Positions 33,341 to 39,661 of a stretch of DNA of 64,000 nucleotides are shown piece by piece (the stretch's first letter is position 1; each line of letters starts with the position of its first letter). Source of the DNA: Halopiger aswanensis (GTDB lineage: Archaea > Halobacteriota > Halobacteria > Halobacteriales > Natrialbaceae); contig NZ_RAPO01000003.1 of NCBI RefSeq assembly GCF_003610195.1, positions 620,001 to 684,000 of the forward strand, read 5' to 3'. A program made the position numbers and the translations under genes. The notes below the pieces were generated by a model. That model was not told where the DNA came from. It was given only the letters and a program-made list of their open reading frames with translations, and did no database searches.

Positions 33341-34561
33341 TTACTCGTCGACCTGCTCGACGCTCACGGTGCCGTCGTTCGCGGACTCGTTCTCGGAAGC
33401 CGCGAGTTCGCTGTTGCTCTCGTTTGCGGTGGCGCCGTCATCGCCGTCGTCCGTCGACTCGAGTTCCCCATCCGCGAGCGTGAACGTCGTCTCGACGGGC
33501 TCGCCGTCGTGTTCGATCGGCGTCGCCGACTCGTTGTCGGCGGGGTCGCCCTCGTAGAGGACGGCCGTGAGTTCGTCGTCGCTGTCGACCCCCTCGAGGG
33601 CGACGGTGACGTTCTCGTGTTCGCCCGGCGCGAGCGCCGCGCTCGTACCGACGACGGTGGCGTTGTCGTCGCTGCCGTTGCCGTCGGTCCGGTCCTCGAC
33701 GGCAACGTACCCGTCCGCCGGAATCGCGACGTCGAACGTCGCCGTGCTCTCGTTCTCGCTCGTGTTCGCGACGGTCACGGCGGGATCGGTATGGAACTCG
33801 AACTCGATCGTCTGGAGCGCGCCGTCGGCGTCGGTGTAGACGCCGATAGTCCGCTCGCCGGGTGTCGCCTCGCTGGCGTCGAACTGGAAGGTCACGTTCC
33901 GGGATTCTTCGGCCTCGAGTTCCAGCAGTTGCCGATCGACGACCGCGCCGTCGAGACGCACCTCGACGTTTTGCTGGGTCGTGAACTCGGTGGGGTTGCT
34001 GATCGTCGCGTTGATCGGGATCGTCCCGTTGGTCGTCGCCGTCGCCGGCACGTCGACGGATTCGACGACGAACGAGTTAGTCAGGCCCTGCTGTTCGGGG
34101 GTCGTCACCGTCGCGGTGTCGCTGACCGGGAACCCGTCCTCGAGGTAGGGGCGGTCCTCCTCGCCCTCGCTTTCCGCGTACGTGTAGGTTTCGTCGCCGT
34201 CGGTGTCCTGATGGACCGTCGCCGTGAGTTGACCGGTGAGTTCCCGGTTTGCAGCCTCGTCGCGTTCGACGGTGACGTTCTCGTGGCTCCCCGAACTCAG
34301 GTAGTCGGAAACGGCGATCGGCTCCGAGCCGCCGTCGGTGATGACGACGAAGCCGCCGTCGGACAGCGAGACCGACTCGATCGTCACGCTCGTGCCGTCG
34401 CCCTGTTGGTCCGCGAACGCGATCGACGCCTCCGGGTCCTCCTCGACGCCGAAGAGGGTCGGCGCTTGCCCGACGAGTATCCCCGCAGCGAGCACGACCG
34501 TGATCGCGAGTAAAATTGCCCCGATACGCTTGATCGTGCCGAAGGTCGATCTCGAGCTCAT
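33341..34561 (-). CDS. Membrane-anchored surface protein with duplicated DUF7282-like domains
   Basis: A 406-residue protein with an N-terminal membrane segment (about residues 12-32) that may be a signal anchor, followed by an extracytoplasmic region. Residues about 45-150 and 275-365 share the pattern GGFVVI...GSHENVTVE and DGYVAVED...GEHENVTVAL, matching the DUF7282 domain of halophile surface proteins. A CARDB/NEW3-like beta domain (about 165-260: VVESVDVPATATTNGTIPINATISNPTEF) lies between them. The tail is a disordered Asn/Asp/Glu-rich stretch. It probably acts on the cell surface. Several NxT/NxS sequons could be glycosylated. Confidence 0.75.
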   Translation of the reverse strand: MSSRSTFGTIKRIGAILLAITVVLAAGILVGQAPTLFGVEEDPEASIAFADQQGDGTSVTIESVSLSDGGFVVITDGGSEPIAVSDYLSSGSHENVTVERDEAANRELTGQLTATVHQDTDGDETYTYAESEGEEDRPYLEDGFPVSDTATVTTPEQQGLTNSFVVESVDVPATATTNGTIPINATISNPTEFTTQQNVEVRLDGAVVDRQLLELEAEESRNVTFQFDASEATPGERTIGVYTDADGALQTIEFEFHTDPAVTVANTSENESTATFDVAIPADGYVAVEDRTDGNGSDDNATVVGTSAALAPGEHENVTVALEGVDSDDELTAVLYEGDPADNESATPIEHDGEPVETTFTLADGELESTDDGDDGATANESNSELAASENESANDGTVSVEQVDE

Positions 34562-35018: not shown

Positions 35019-36203
35019 ATGATCGTCGCAGCGACCCTCACGGTGCTCGGTCTCCTGATCGGGATCGGAATCGTCCAGCGGTACGGCCTTCGGCTCTCCG
35101 GAGTCCTCGTCGTGCCGCTGTTCGCCGTGTACGCGCTGTACGATTTCACCGCGATTCCGGCGTTCGCACTCGGCATAATCGCCGCCTACGGCGGCCTGGT
35201 GATCCTCCAGCGCCGAACGTTCCTGTTCGGCCGCCAGCTCCTGCTGGCGAGCATGGGGATCAGCATGGCCGTCCCCCTCGGTGTTTTCGGTGGACTCACA
35301 CTGCTCGGCGTGCCCGGGCTCACCCTGTCCGACGTCACGTTCGTCGGGAGCATCCTCCCGGGCGTCGCCGCGTACAACTACCACCAGCTCGAGTCGGATC
35401 GGCGCCGCGACGACGTGCTGTTGAGCGCCGCGACGTTGCTCGGGTTGACCGGGCTCGGCGTCGCGCTCGTCAACCTTCCCCTGGCCCCGTATCTCGGCTC
35501 GCTGACGCCGCCGGTCCTGTACGGCGAGGGGTCGGATATCGCCGCGATTCAGGGCGTGAGCTTCTCGGACGCCTCGAGTCCCCTCACTGCACCGCCCGCG
35601 GTGATCCTCGCGGCGATCGTCGCGGGGATGGTCGTCTCCGAGGGGGCGTACCTTCGCTGGGGGATCAGACTCAACGGCATCATCGCCTTGCCGTTGCTCG
35701 CGCTGTTTACGCTCCGGTCGGTCGCCGTGTTCCCGCTGTACGTCGCGGGACTCGCCGCCGTCTACGGGCTGATCACGCTGCTTCACCGCTGGACGCTGCT
35801 GTACGGCCGGGTGTTGCTCGCGAGCGGGCTGGTCATCGCGATGGTCGGTTCGGTTCCGGTCGCAATGGTCGCCCCGGTGACGAGCGGGCGGCACCTGTTC
35901 TTCGCGGCGATCCTGATCGGCATCGGTGCGTACAACCTGCATCGGATGCCGCCGGAACACCGCTCGACGTCGATCGCGCTCTCCGCGGGCGCGTTCGTCG
36001 GCTTCCTCGGCGTCTTGGGCTGGGTGGTCGGCCCGCTACCGGAAGCGATCGTCGCCGATCCGGACGTCCTCGAGGCCGGGGCCGTGCTCGTCGCGACCGT
36101 CGTCGTGATCGTCGCCGCGGGGACCGCCCTCCGACTCGAGCGACTCCGACCGAGCGCTGCGGAGCGTCGTCGAATCGCCTCGCACGACCACACCGACTCC
36201 TAA
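35019..36203 (+). CDS. pgsC: PgsC/CapC-like poly-gamma-glutamate synthesis protein, internally duplicated
   Basis: A 394-residue integral membrane protein, more than twice the length of bacterial PgsC (about 150 residues). The two halves repeat each other. Residues about 20-88 (QRYGLRLSGVLVVPLFAVYA...QRRTFLFGRQLLLASMGI) and about 208-278 (LRWGIRLNGIIALPLLALF...HRWTLLYGRVLLASGLVI) align clearly. It therefore looks like two PgsC units fused, with ten or more TM segments. PgsC partners PgsB in polymerising glutamate at the membrane. A 27-bp gap separates it from pgsB, which indicates an operon. Confidence 0.85.
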   Translation: MIVAATLTVLGLLIGIGIVQRYGLRLSGVLVVPLFAVYALYDFTAIPAFALGIIAAYGGLVILQRRTFLFGRQLLLASMGISMAVPLGVFGGLTLLGVPGLTLSDVTFVGSILPGVAAYNYHQLESDRRRDDVLLSAATLLGLTGLGVALVNLPLAPYLGSLTPPVLYGEGSDIAAIQGVSFSDASSPLTAPPAVILAAIVAGMVVSEGAYLRWGIRLNGIIALPLLALFTLRSVAVFPLYVAGLAAVYGLITLLHRWTLLYGRVLLASGLVIAMVGSVPVAMVAPVTSGRHLFFAAILIGIGAYNLHRMPPEHRSTSIALSAGAFVGFLGVLGWVVGPLPEAIVADPDVLEAGAVLVATVVVIVAAGTALRLERLRPSAAERRRIASHDHTDS

Positions 36204-36230
36204 CCCACCACACCTCACTCCACCCCCACG

Positions 36231-37481
36231 ATGGCATACCCAAACTTCGATCTCCCGGTCGCGGAACCGGTCACACGAATCGCGAAGCAACTCGCGACGC
36301 CGCTGACGCGCGGCGTCGATCACCGACAGCGGTTGGCGGATATCGACGTTCGGATCGTCGTCTCCGGCACGCGCGGCAAGTCCGGGACGACCGAACGCAT
36401 CCACGACGTCCTCCGCTCGCGCGGCTACGACGTCTACGCGAAGATCACCGGCAACCACCCGCTGTCGCTGTACAACGGTGAGCGACACGAGGTCGACCGC
36501 GGCGAGCGCGTCACGCTCTACGAGAACGTCCGCGAACTCCGCAAGTACACCCCCGTCGACGCCCTGATCCTCGAGAATCAGGGGATCACGGACTACACGA
36601 CGCGGCTGATGAACGAGGCGTTCGGCAAACCGGACGTGCTCGTCGTCACGAATGTCCGTCAGGATCACCGCGACACGCTCGGCGGCTCTCGCGCCGACAT
36701 CGCCCGCGCGTTCGCTCGGGCCACGCCCGAGGGAACCCACGTCGTCAGCGGCGAACAGGACCCCCGGCTCCGCGCGCTCCTCGAGCGCGAACTCGAGGCG
36801 ATCGGCGCGACGATTTCGCACGTCGACGTCCCGGAAACCCACCGCGACCTGCCGGGCGCGGAGACCGTCTACGCGATCAACGACGTCCTCGCGGCGATCG
36901 GCGAGCAGCCGTTGTCCGACCGCGTCATCGAGGACATGCTCGAGGAGTTCCGAATCGAGTGGACGTCGGTGCCGAACGGCCGCGTGTTCAACGCCGCCGA
37001 CGTCAACGACGTCGAGAGTACGGAACTCGTCAGGCAGGCGTTGGTCGACGGCGGTACCGGCGACGAGGAAGTCGTCCAGCCGTTCCTCTACCTGCGTCGC
37101 GACCGTCGCGCTCGTACCGCATCGTTCCGGGACTACCTCGAGTCGCTCGCCGATCGCGGGGCGATCGAACAGGTACGCGTTGCGGGGGGACACGCGGCGC
37201 TGTTCGCCGAGAAGACGACGTTTCCAGTGGTCGTCCACGACGAGGACGCGGAGTCCGCGGGTGGGGTGTTAGACGAGGCGCTGGCCGACGGCTGGCCGGT
37301 GCTCGTGATGGGGAACACCGTCGCGGAGTTCATGCGAGATCTCGACGATGCGATCCAGCGACGACACGATGCCGTCGATCGACGTCGGCAGGAACGGGAC
37401 GAGGAGACAGACGCGGATGGCGACGACCGAACCGCCTCCGACGAACAGCGTTCGACCGACCCGCAGCAACTGCCAGCGTAG
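36231..37481 (+). CDS. pgsB: PgsB/CapB poly-gamma-glutamate synthase
   Basis: A 416-residue Mur-ligase-type ATP-dependent amide ligase. The P-loop is VVSGTRGKSGTTERIHDVL, followed by VYAKITGNHPLSLYNG and the glutamate/ligase-type segment DALILENQGITDYTTRLMNEAF and VVTNVRQDHRDTLG. These are hallmarks of PgsB/CapB, which activates and links glutamate through gamma-carboxylates. The C-terminal 45 residues are an acidic tail. It lies between the PgsC-like gene and a TAT-exported hydrolase-like gene, all in one direction with short gaps. Confidence 0.93.
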   Translation: MAYPNFDLPVAEPVTRIAKQLATPLTRGVDHRQRLADIDVRIVVSGTRGKSGTTERIHDVLRSRGYDVYAKITGNHPLSLYNGERHEVDRGERVTLYENVRELRKYTPVDALILENQGITDYTTRLMNEAFGKPDVLVVTNVRQDHRDTLGGSRADIARAFARATPEGTHVVSGEQDPRLRALLERELEAIGATISHVDVPETHRDLPGAETVYAINDVLAAIGEQPLSDRVIEDMLEEFRIEWTSVPNGRVFNAADVNDVESTELVRQALVDGGTGDEEVVQPFLYLRRDRRARTASFRDYLESLADRGAIEQVRVAGGHAALFAEKTTFPVVVHDEDAESAGGVLDEALADGWPVLVMGNTVAEFMRDLDDAIQRRHDAVDRRRQERDEETDADGDDRTASDEQRSTDPQQLPA

Positions 37482-37522
37482 TCCGATCCGACCGGCCACG
37501 ACACACCACACCACCTCCGACG

Positions 37523-38635
37523 ATGACAGACAACGATACTGACTCCGACACCGACTCCACGCGGCATCGTTTCCGACCATCCCGCCGAACGTTCCTCGGC
37601 GCGGCACTCGCCTCACCGGCCGCACTGGGACTCGGCGTGACCAGCTACCAAGCCGCGACGCGGCCCGACAGCGACGTCTCCTACGACACCGGCCTCGTCT
37701 GCTCGCTCGCCGATACCCAGGACGACCTCGACGGCAACCAGCACGCGATCTCGGCCGATCCGCGACTGCTCGAGGCCCACGGGCTGTCGGCCGGGGACCA
37801 GCTCCGGGTCGAGCGCTCCGACGACGAGTTCGCGGCCTACACGGTCGCCGAGAGCCGCCCCGAGGCGCCACAGGGAATCGTCCGCATGTCCGACAGCGGG
37901 CAGTACCGCCTCGACCTCGCCGACCGAGAGTGGTCGGCCGAGGACGATCTGAACACGTGTCCCGCGCCCCGAACCGATCACTCGCTCGAGGACGAGTTCG
38001 AAGCCGACATCTCGACGACCCTGCCGCGACCGGATCTCTCGGTCGACGAGGCCCGCGAGCAGGGCGAACTCGTCGAGCAACTCGACGAGGGCGACGAGTC
38101 GCTGGTCGCGATCGCACCCCACGGCGGCGGCATGCAGCCGTGGACCGACGAGCAGGCGGCCCGCGTCGGCGAACTCGCGTCGGCGACGAGCTGGCGAGCG
38201 CTCGGCTGGGGCCCCTCGCCCGAGGGCGGCGCGTTCCGCCGGTGGTACGTCCCGTCCACGGAGATTTCCCCGGCCTCGTACCCGAAACTCGCCGAGATCG
38301 CCGACACCGAGTTCGACGTCGCCGTCGACTTCGGTGGCGTCTGCGAGTCGGGTATCGAGGTCGGCGGCACCGCCGACGAGTCGCTGCGCGCCGAGATTCG
38401 CGATGCGATCAACGAGGCACTGCCGCGCTGTGCCGTCGAAGCGACGCTCCCCGACGAGCCCGACGGCACGGCCGACTCGATGCTGGTCAACCGGCTCGGC
38501 GAGGACGGCGTCTTCGTCTCCCAGAGCTACGCGACCCGCCGCGCGTACTGGAAGCAGATCGCTCACGGCGTCGCCGCCGCCCTGAGCGACGACGTGAGCG
38601 CCGCCCTCGCATCGCTCGAGTCGGCCGGCTGTTAG
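37523..38635 (+). CDS. TAT-exported poly-gamma-glutamate hydrolase-like protein
   Basis: A 370-residue protein with a twin-arginine signal (PSRRTFLGAALASPAALGLG). It shows the pattern of the PghP-like poly-gamma-glutamate hydrolase (DUF867) family: VAIAPHGGGMQPWTDEQA near 195, a Gly-rich middle, and a C-terminal VNRLGEDGVFVSQSYATR segment. The HG that follows in known members appears as DFGGVCESG here, so one metal or catalytic ligand may be missing. As third gene of the PGA operon, it may trim, release or bind the polymer outside the cell. The ATG at 37523 puts the signal peptide at the N-terminus. Confidence 0.75.
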   Translation: MTDNDTDSDTDSTRHRFRPSRRTFLGAALASPAALGLGVTSYQAATRPDSDVSYDTGLVCSLADTQDDLDGNQHAISADPRLLEAHGLSAGDQLRVERSDDEFAAYTVAESRPEAPQGIVRMSDSGQYRLDLADREWSAEDDLNTCPAPRTDHSLEDEFEADISTTLPRPDLSVDEAREQGELVEQLDEGDESLVAIAPHGGGMQPWTDEQAARVGELASATSWRALGWGPSPEGGAFRRWYVPSTEISPASYPKLAEIADTEFDVAVDFGGVCESGIEVGGTADESLRAEIRDAINEALPRCAVEATLPDEPDGTADSMLVNRLGEDGVFVSQSYATRRAYWKQIAHGVAAALSDDVSAALASLESAGC

Positions 38636-38716
38636 CGCCCCGAACGTCGGCCCGACGGCGCTATTTTTCGGCTTGATTCGAAGGCGGTATACTTGTCCCG
38701 GCCCCATATCGACCCG

Positions 38717-39661
38717 ATGCCACTGCGCGTGACGTTTTTGGGAACGGCCGGGGCGATTCCGACGACCGAGCGGAATCCGAGCGGAATCTTCGTCTCCCGC
38801 GAGGGCGAGGAGCTGCTGTTCGACGCCGGCGAGGGGACCCAGCGCCAGATGATGCGCTTTGGCACCGGCTTTTCGGTCTCGCACCTGTTCGTCACGCACC
38901 TCCACGGCGACCACGTCCTCGGGATTCCGGGGCTGCTCCAGACCATGGACTTCAACGAGCGCGAGGAGCCCCTCGCGATTCACACGCCACGCGGCACGCG
39001 CCGGAAACTCGAGTCGCTCGTGAACGCCCTCGACAACGACCCCGCCTTCCCCGTGCGGATCAACGAGGTCGGCGACGGGGACGTGGCCTACCGCGCCGAC
39101 GAGTACGAGGTCCGCGCGTTCGGGACCGACCACGACGCCCGGTCGGTCGGCTACGCCCTCGTCGAGGACGACCGCAAGGGCCGGTTCGACCGCGAGCGCG
39201 CCGAGGAACTCGGCGTCCCGGTCGGGCCGAAGTTCTCTAAACTCCACGAGGGCACCCCCGTCGAACTCGAGGACGGCACCGTCGTCGAGCCCGAGCAGGT
39301 CGTCGGCGACCCGCGACCGGGGCGTACGATCGTCTACACCGGTGATACGCGGCCGACGGTGGCGACGATCGAAGTCGCCGACGACCCCGACCTGCTGATC
39401 CACGACGCGACCTTCGCCGAGGATCGGGCCGACCGCGCGACGAAGACGGCCCACTCGACGGCCAAACAGGCCGCCGAAATCGCCAACCGGGCCGGTGCGA
39501 GTCGGCTGGCGCTGATGCACCTGTCCTCGCGCTACGCGGGCTATACGGACGATCACCTCGCGGAGGCCCGCGAGGTGTTCGACGGCGAGGTCTTCGTCCC
39601 CGAGGACGGGCAGAAACTCGAGATTCCGTATCCTGACGCGGACGCAGACCCGGACGAGTAG
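38717..39661 (+). CDS. rnz: Ribonuclease Z
   Basis: A 314-residue metallo-beta-lactamase-fold endonuclease that removes the 3' trailer of tRNA precursors. The zinc-binding motif is VTHLHGDHVLGIPGLL at about 61-76; the further ligands lie in FGTDHD, VYTGDT and LMHLSSRY. The N-terminus MPLRVTFLGTAGAIPT and the exosite insertion match standard archaeal tRNase Z. A TATA element (GGTATACTT, about 38686-38694) lies 27 bp before the chosen ATG, indicating a leaderless mRNA. Confidence 0.95.
   Translation: MPLRVTFLGTAGAIPTTERNPSGIFVSREGEELLFDAGEGTQRQMMRFGTGFSVSHLFVTHLHGDHVLGIPGLLQTMDFNEREEPLAIHTPRGTRRKLESLVNALDNDPAFPVRINEVGDGDVAYRADEYEVRAFGTDHDARSVGYALVEDDRKGRFDRERAEELGVPVGPKFSKLHEGTPVELEDGTVVEPEQVVGDPRPGRTIVYTGDTRPTVATIEVADDPDLLIHDATFAEDRADRATKTAHSTAKQAAEIANRAGASRLALMHLSSRYAGYTDDHLAEAREVFDGEVFVPEDGQKLEIPYPDADADPDE

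Follow-up and report, generated by a model that had tools for sequence, protein, structure and literature searches.

A PghP-fold protein without the catalytic residues of the hydrolase accompanies PgsC and PgsB in some haloarchaea

Which protein stands beside the poly-gamma-glutamate (PGA) synthase proteins PgsC and PgsB (PgsCB) in archaea, in the position that PgsA occupies in bacteria? The question is raised by a 64,000-nt stretch of the Halopiger aswanensis genome (4.87 Mb; contig NZ_RAPO01000003.1, positions 620001–684000), hereafter the window, where three + strand genes, pgsC, pgsB and a third gene, lie at 35019–38635, separated by 27 and 41 nt. We refer to these genes as the trio. The initial annotation had read them as a duplicated PgsC, PgsB and a hydrolase-like protein with a twin-arginine translocation (TAT) signal, in this order and with short gaps, and domains, coordinates and gap lengths all agree. 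The third protein has the fold of the PGA hydrolase PghP and has lost its active-site residues. It belongs to a single clade that is under purifying selection and strictly linked to PgsB. We favor, with a probability of about 0.62, a membrane-tethered, polymer-binding pseudo-hydrolase that partners PgsCB in the position of bacterial PgsA and would hold or guide the chain uncut. From the residues, the locus appears to encode a PgsCB synthase whose constant companion is a PGA hydrolase that has lost its activity. In the open-licence literature we found no published description of an inactivated PghP-type partner.

Domains and active site of the third protein

The genes and domains of the locus are the following (window coordinates).
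35019–36203, + strand: PgsC/CapC, membrane protein of 394 aa, two CapC units fused in tandem (PF14102, 1.9e-31, two stretches).
36231–37481, + strand: PgsB/CapB, Mur-ligase-like amide ligase of 416 aa with the P-loop GTRGKSGTT (PF08245, partial TIGR04012).
37523–38635, + strand: third gene of the trio, 370 aa, putative TAT-signal pseudo-hydrolase of PghP fold (PF05908, fold match to 3a9l, catalytic residues lost).
37574–37657, + strand: candidate twin-arginine signal, SRRTFLG, plus a hydrophobic segment in which Pro32 is invariant; no lipobox Cys (weak TAT models, alignment).
37679–38023, + strand: N-terminal double-psi beta-barrel (DPBB) domain and linker, residues 53–167 (VIA-align Z about 10 to DPBB structures).
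38024–38599, + strand: PghP-fold domain, residues 168–359 (structure matches to 3a9l and 5onj).

With its start placed at the ATG at 37523, the third protein matches PF05908 barely above the cut-off (6.1e-5; 23 bits for a cut-off of 22). Among solved structures, it is closest to PghP (3a9l), a phage PM1 hydrolase and PghL in complex with PGA. The PghP-fold domain aligns with PghP over 183 residues (Z 15.7, rmsd 2.9) and with the PghL–PGA complex (5onj) at Z 14.6. PF09587, the PgsA/CapA domain, gave no match in this protein at E values up to 1.

The activity of PghP is impaired by alanine mutants of His40, Glu45, His78, His103 and Glu165 (PMC6506827). We derived the equivalents of these sites from the alignment and by counting along 3a9l, and compared 27 trio proteins (24 distinct) with 16 free-standing haloarchaeal paralogues (14 distinct). 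The relevant residues of the window protein are listed below.
37958–37960, + strand: Cys146, in the trio-specific linker (alignment).
38120–38122, + strand: His200, equivalent to the zinc ligand His40 of PghP, the sole one of the five key residues kept (alignment).
38135–38137, + strand: Gln205, replacing the zinc ligand Glu45 (alignment).
38246–38248, + strand: Tyr242, replacing His78 (alignment).
38333–38335, + strand: Gly271, replacing the zinc ligand His103 (alignment).
38342–38344, + strand: Cys274, which follows the lost His103 site by three residues and may pair with Cys146 in a disulfide.
38519–38521, + strand: Ser333, replacing the catalytic Glu165 (alignment).
38537–38539, + strand: Arg339, equivalent to PghL Arg171, invariant in all trio and free-standing homologues.

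The five sites of the window protein read HQYGS: two of the three zinc ligands and the catalytic Glu are lost. Among the trio proteins the combinations are HQYGS, HQYGA, HQHSS, HQHSA, HERNS, SEHNS, HQYHG, HQYNG, or HEHHG. Glu165 is absent from all 24 distinct proteins, where Ser, Ala or Gly stands instead, and 20 of these have additionally lost one or more zinc ligands. The free-standing paralogues, by comparison, read HEHHE in 16 of 16 cases, which include the two H. aswanensis paralogues that were read. A further PF05908-like gene of this genome (G000:C10:34877-35509) was detected with the trio profile only, at 72 bits; two others were found with Pfam. These residues make it almost certain that the third protein does not work as a hydrolase. 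The term hydrolase-like therefore holds for its fold and ancestry (PF05908, 3a9l) and fails for its enzymatic residues. It had been suggested to help release or anchor the polymer; with the active-site residues gone, release by cutting is unlikely, and the residues that remain would fit anchoring, guiding or binding.

Arg171 of PghL anchors the glutamate carboxylate of PGA, and the R171S mutant is inactive. Besides its equivalent Arg339, Asn323 and Ser245, which correspond by position to PghL Asn151 and Ser80, are nearly invariant in both the trio and the free-standing sets. Cys146 and Cys274 are both present in 21 of the 24 distinct trio proteins and both gone in the same three close relatives, that is, in one event. 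As the two are lost together, they possibly form a disulfide, which suggests that the linker is pinned beside the dead site.

PgsB exceeds the cut-off of the Mur-ligase middle domain PF08245 and matches TIGR04012 partially (89 bits, cut-off 222.7); its profile retrieved only Mur ligases and FolC from the PDB. PgsC scores below the cut-off of TIGR04011, and our search of the H. aswanensis genome found no second CapC. Two separate adjacent PgsC genes, of 232 and 199 aa, are present at L056:5444-6741 (same as L108) and likely represent the state before fusion.

Linkage to PgsB, ancestry, and selection

We surveyed 125 genomes of the family, 23 of which encode PgsB homologues, and 391 genomes of the class. 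A search of the class sample with a profile of the trio clade gave 23 full-length matches, of 276 bits or more. Each of the 23 immediately follows a PgsB gene in the same orientation, and no member of the clade was found away from PgsB. The next-best matches fall to 210 bits and are free-standing hydrolases. The arrangement recurs in the family and in the class and is therefore not due to chance; with 23 loci in the class sample, a rare exception is ruled out. The third gene is not universal: most haloarchaeal PgsCB loci have neither the pseudo-hydrolase nor CapA. The slot downstream of PgsB in 84 fetched PgsB loci is occupied by a pseudo-hydrolase in 24 (plus one remnant) and by CapA in seven. 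These seven bear out the proposal that the hydrolase-like protein sits in the place of PgsA.

The pseudo-hydrolase is found in none of the 30 loci with an N-terminally extended PgsB and in 24 of the 54 with a short PgsB. The extension, about 130–150 aa with a weak DUF1508 match, is found in many haloarchaeal PgsB (L101, L104, L105, L107, L111–L116, and others), and a response regulator and a large histidine kinase adjoin pgsC in these loci.

Ten trio loci (L045, L046, L047, L202, L203, L205–L209) are adjoined by an intact PghP-type gene (HEHHE) of varying orientation. Cutting, where needed, therefore comes from a separate gene. In Bacillus too, cutting is supplied by a separate gene, PgdS.

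A maximum-likelihood tree of 27 rows separates the 19 trio proteins from the rest at a branch supported at 100/100; some of the free-standing rows have long branches, which leaves their own order unsure. Four distinct early-branching members (from Salinarchaeum, Halomarina, and two more) are of the HEHHG type. Because these lineages keep the zinc ligands yet lack Glu165, the pattern fits a loss of catalysis first and of the metal later. The dN/dS ratio of the third gene is 0.19–0.34, compared with 0.11–0.20 for pgsB and 0.11–0.32 for pgsC. As this is not far above pgsB and resembles pgsC, the pseudo-enzyme is maintained by selection, and the same values rule out a decaying pseudogene. Damaged copies do occur: PgsB is truncated in L062 (G064), the third gene is frame-shifted in L043, and only a remnant of it is left in L157 (G275).

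A recent phage origin of the third gene was rejected, phage matches being only weak. PghP-like genes are present in the haloviruses HCTV-1 (Haloarcula californiae tailed virus 1; KC292029.1, 92355-92771) and HCTV-16 (MZ334524.1), a hint that PGA may act as an infection barrier in haloarchaea.

In the window, a divergent gene upstream of pgsC (33341–34561, − strand) encodes a secreted protein with DUF7282 domains. Such a neighbor is also found beside the trio in several Natrialbaceae, perhaps as mere shared synteny with the ribonuclease Z downstream (38693–39661). In Natrialba taiwanensis (L099:1199-6289) and N. aegyptia (L100:1192-6288), the gene that immediately precedes the trio, in the same orientation, encodes a protein of about 1700 aa that combines subtilase, CARDB, carboxypeptidase-regulatory-like and dockerin domains.

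PF09587 proteins and comparison with known systems

The operon was described as lacking a PgsA, and no PF09587 protein was found in it, nor next to the trio in those relatives from the family that were checked. The statement does not extend to the genome: a genome-wide absence of PgsA is ruled out by two PF09587 genes away from the operon. One encodes a protein of 432 aa with no evident signal; the product of the other, of 712 aa, has both a TAT signal and a lipobox-like Cys. The latter is of a type found near PgsCB in 12 other loci, downstream of PgsB in seven, upstream of PgsC in four and divergent in one; two of the 12 also carry the trio. Comparison of the listed genomes of the class sample gives PF09587 in 48 of the 80 PgsB-bearing genomes and in 162 of the 311 others. 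Being hardly commoner with PgsB, and matching also Escherichia coli and others without CapC, this domain was discarded as an indicator that a haloarchaeon makes PGA.

The class survey places PF09587 in 13 of the 22 trio genomes and leaves nine without it. The 712-aa protein then served as query for a second search of seven trio genomes that had been negative in the family search. Six remained without a match; the single match, in G104, was marginal (E 0.002) and covered query residues 4–101, ahead of the PGA_cap domain. Both searches were empty in Natrialba aegyptia DSM 13077 (G041). As its assembly is a draft of about 70 contigs, 99% complete, this absence is strong, not absolute.

The trio shares with Bacillus PgsBCA(E)/CapBCA(E) the adjacent PgsC and PgsB and, in the same slot, a third protein that is probably exported or membrane-anchored. 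It differs in the tandem fusion of PgsC, in the order C-B and in a third protein of PghP fold instead of PF09587; moreover, the gaps of 27 and 41 nt leave no room for a PgsE gene. Haloarchaeal PgsC-PgsB-CapA loci, such as Haloarcula argentinensis L135, G138 and G190, have the same PgsC and PgsB families and an exported protein in the slot, but there it is of the PF09587 type, a TAT lipoprotein about 710 aa long. An archaeal CapC-CapB pair is also present near halomucin in Haloquadratum walsbyi, described there as CapBCA capsule genes with no PghP-like third gene reported (PMC1544339). With the PghP/PghL hydrolases (PF05908, MEROPS M86), the third protein shares the fold, the anchoring Arg, a conserved Asn and GG motifs, whereas it lacks the catalytic Glu, retains a single one of the three zinc ligands, carries a fused DPBB domain and is strictly linked to pgsB. 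PghP-like genes had been counted in five PGA-producing archaea, with no conclusion drawn (PMC4497714).

Possible roles of the third protein

Under the reading that we favor, PgsB would activate and join glutamate, and the fused, duplicated PgsC would carry the chain across the membrane, the two forming a two-component synthase and exporter. At the outer face of the membrane, the TAT-targeted pseudo-hydrolase would receive the emerging chain in its old substrate groove without cutting it. The kept carboxylate-anchoring Arg, mostly together with the Asn, would then serve to hold or guide the polymer at the PgsC/PgsB complex. Ancestry, location and residue pattern are the grounds for four inferences: the protein binds the polymer, contacts PgsC, stays anchored by an uncleaved TAT segment and takes over the function of PgsA.

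Several observations weigh against this reading. The RR pair is invariant in the trio clade, but the Pfam and TIGR TAT models remain below their cut-offs, and the PghL recognition residues His77 and Thr79 are not preserved. CapA and the pseudo-hydrolase never share the slot, in a sample too small for this exclusion to be significant. Neither of them is present in 52 of the 84 PgsB loci, and a third gene is therefore dispensable for PgsCB in general. The two PF09587 proteins of H. aswanensis count here as well. N. aegyptia, where PF09587 was not found and which makes gamma-L-PGA of the L form only and of over 1000 kDa (PMC3815933), counts in favor of the reading, but its polymer may be attributed either to the trio or to a second PgsCB locus without third gene (L055). 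N. asiatica, also named as a PGA producer in a review (PMC5751247), has only a PgsCB pair without third gene (L058, L110) and a PF09587 gene.

It is very improbable that the third protein works as a gamma-PGA hydrolase and trims or releases the polymer, as proposed for PgdS: its PF05908 match, its PghP fold and the four early-branching members with all three zinc ligands would favor it, but Glu165 is absent throughout the trio proteins, the zinc ligands are mostly lost, including in the window, and intact paralogues adjoin the trio in ten loci. The same paralogues, the PghP-like genes of HCTV-1 and HCTV-16 and the kept Arg anchor would suit a regulator or protector outside the synthase, which shields the polymer from active PghP, own or viral, or sets chain length. 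We regard this as unlikely, as linkage to PgsB is strict (23/23) and that to active PghP partial, and no clade member was found away from PgsB.

We likewise rather doubt that H. aswanensis has its true PgsA in one of the PF09587 proteins encoded away from the operon, with the third gene as an accessory. The genome has two candidates, and the 712-aa type does neighbor PgsCB in other loci, two of them with the trio; however, PF09587 is scarcely associated with PgsB and is missing from nine trio genomes. Less likely still, PgsC and PgsB would make another gamma-linked polymer, or short glutamyl chains for the cell wall, instead of secreted gamma-PGA. Both proteins fall under the NCBIfam equivalog cut-offs, and a short gamma-L-PGA is reported from the cell wall polymer of Natronococcus occultus (PMC3815933). 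Conversely, in N. aegyptia, which produces long gamma-L-PGA, no PgsB of any other family was found, and the partner protein has the fold of a PGA hydrolase.

A more specific form of the pseudo-hydrolase reading is tentative. The pseudo-enzyme might be an outer-face subunit of PgsCB that replaces PgsA, with the chain held in the dead groove under a disulfide-pinned linker, and the absence of PgsA may help to explain the pure-L PGA of archaea. In B. subtilis, PgsBC alone yields L-rich PGA (95% L; PMC6029982), and PgsA itself may therefore be dispensable for synthesis; the parallel with the L-only PGA of N. aegyptia is suggestive.

The exit of the PGA chain from the synthase and the role of PgsA are unsettled even in Bacillus. 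For annotation, the third genes of the trios would be called gamma-PGA hydrolases and miscounted in surveys of PGA degradation. An archaeal PgsCB clade with a dead hydrolase, in several genomes without PgsA, amounts to a natural replacement experiment, and it suggests that the contribution of the third subunit could be polymer binding.

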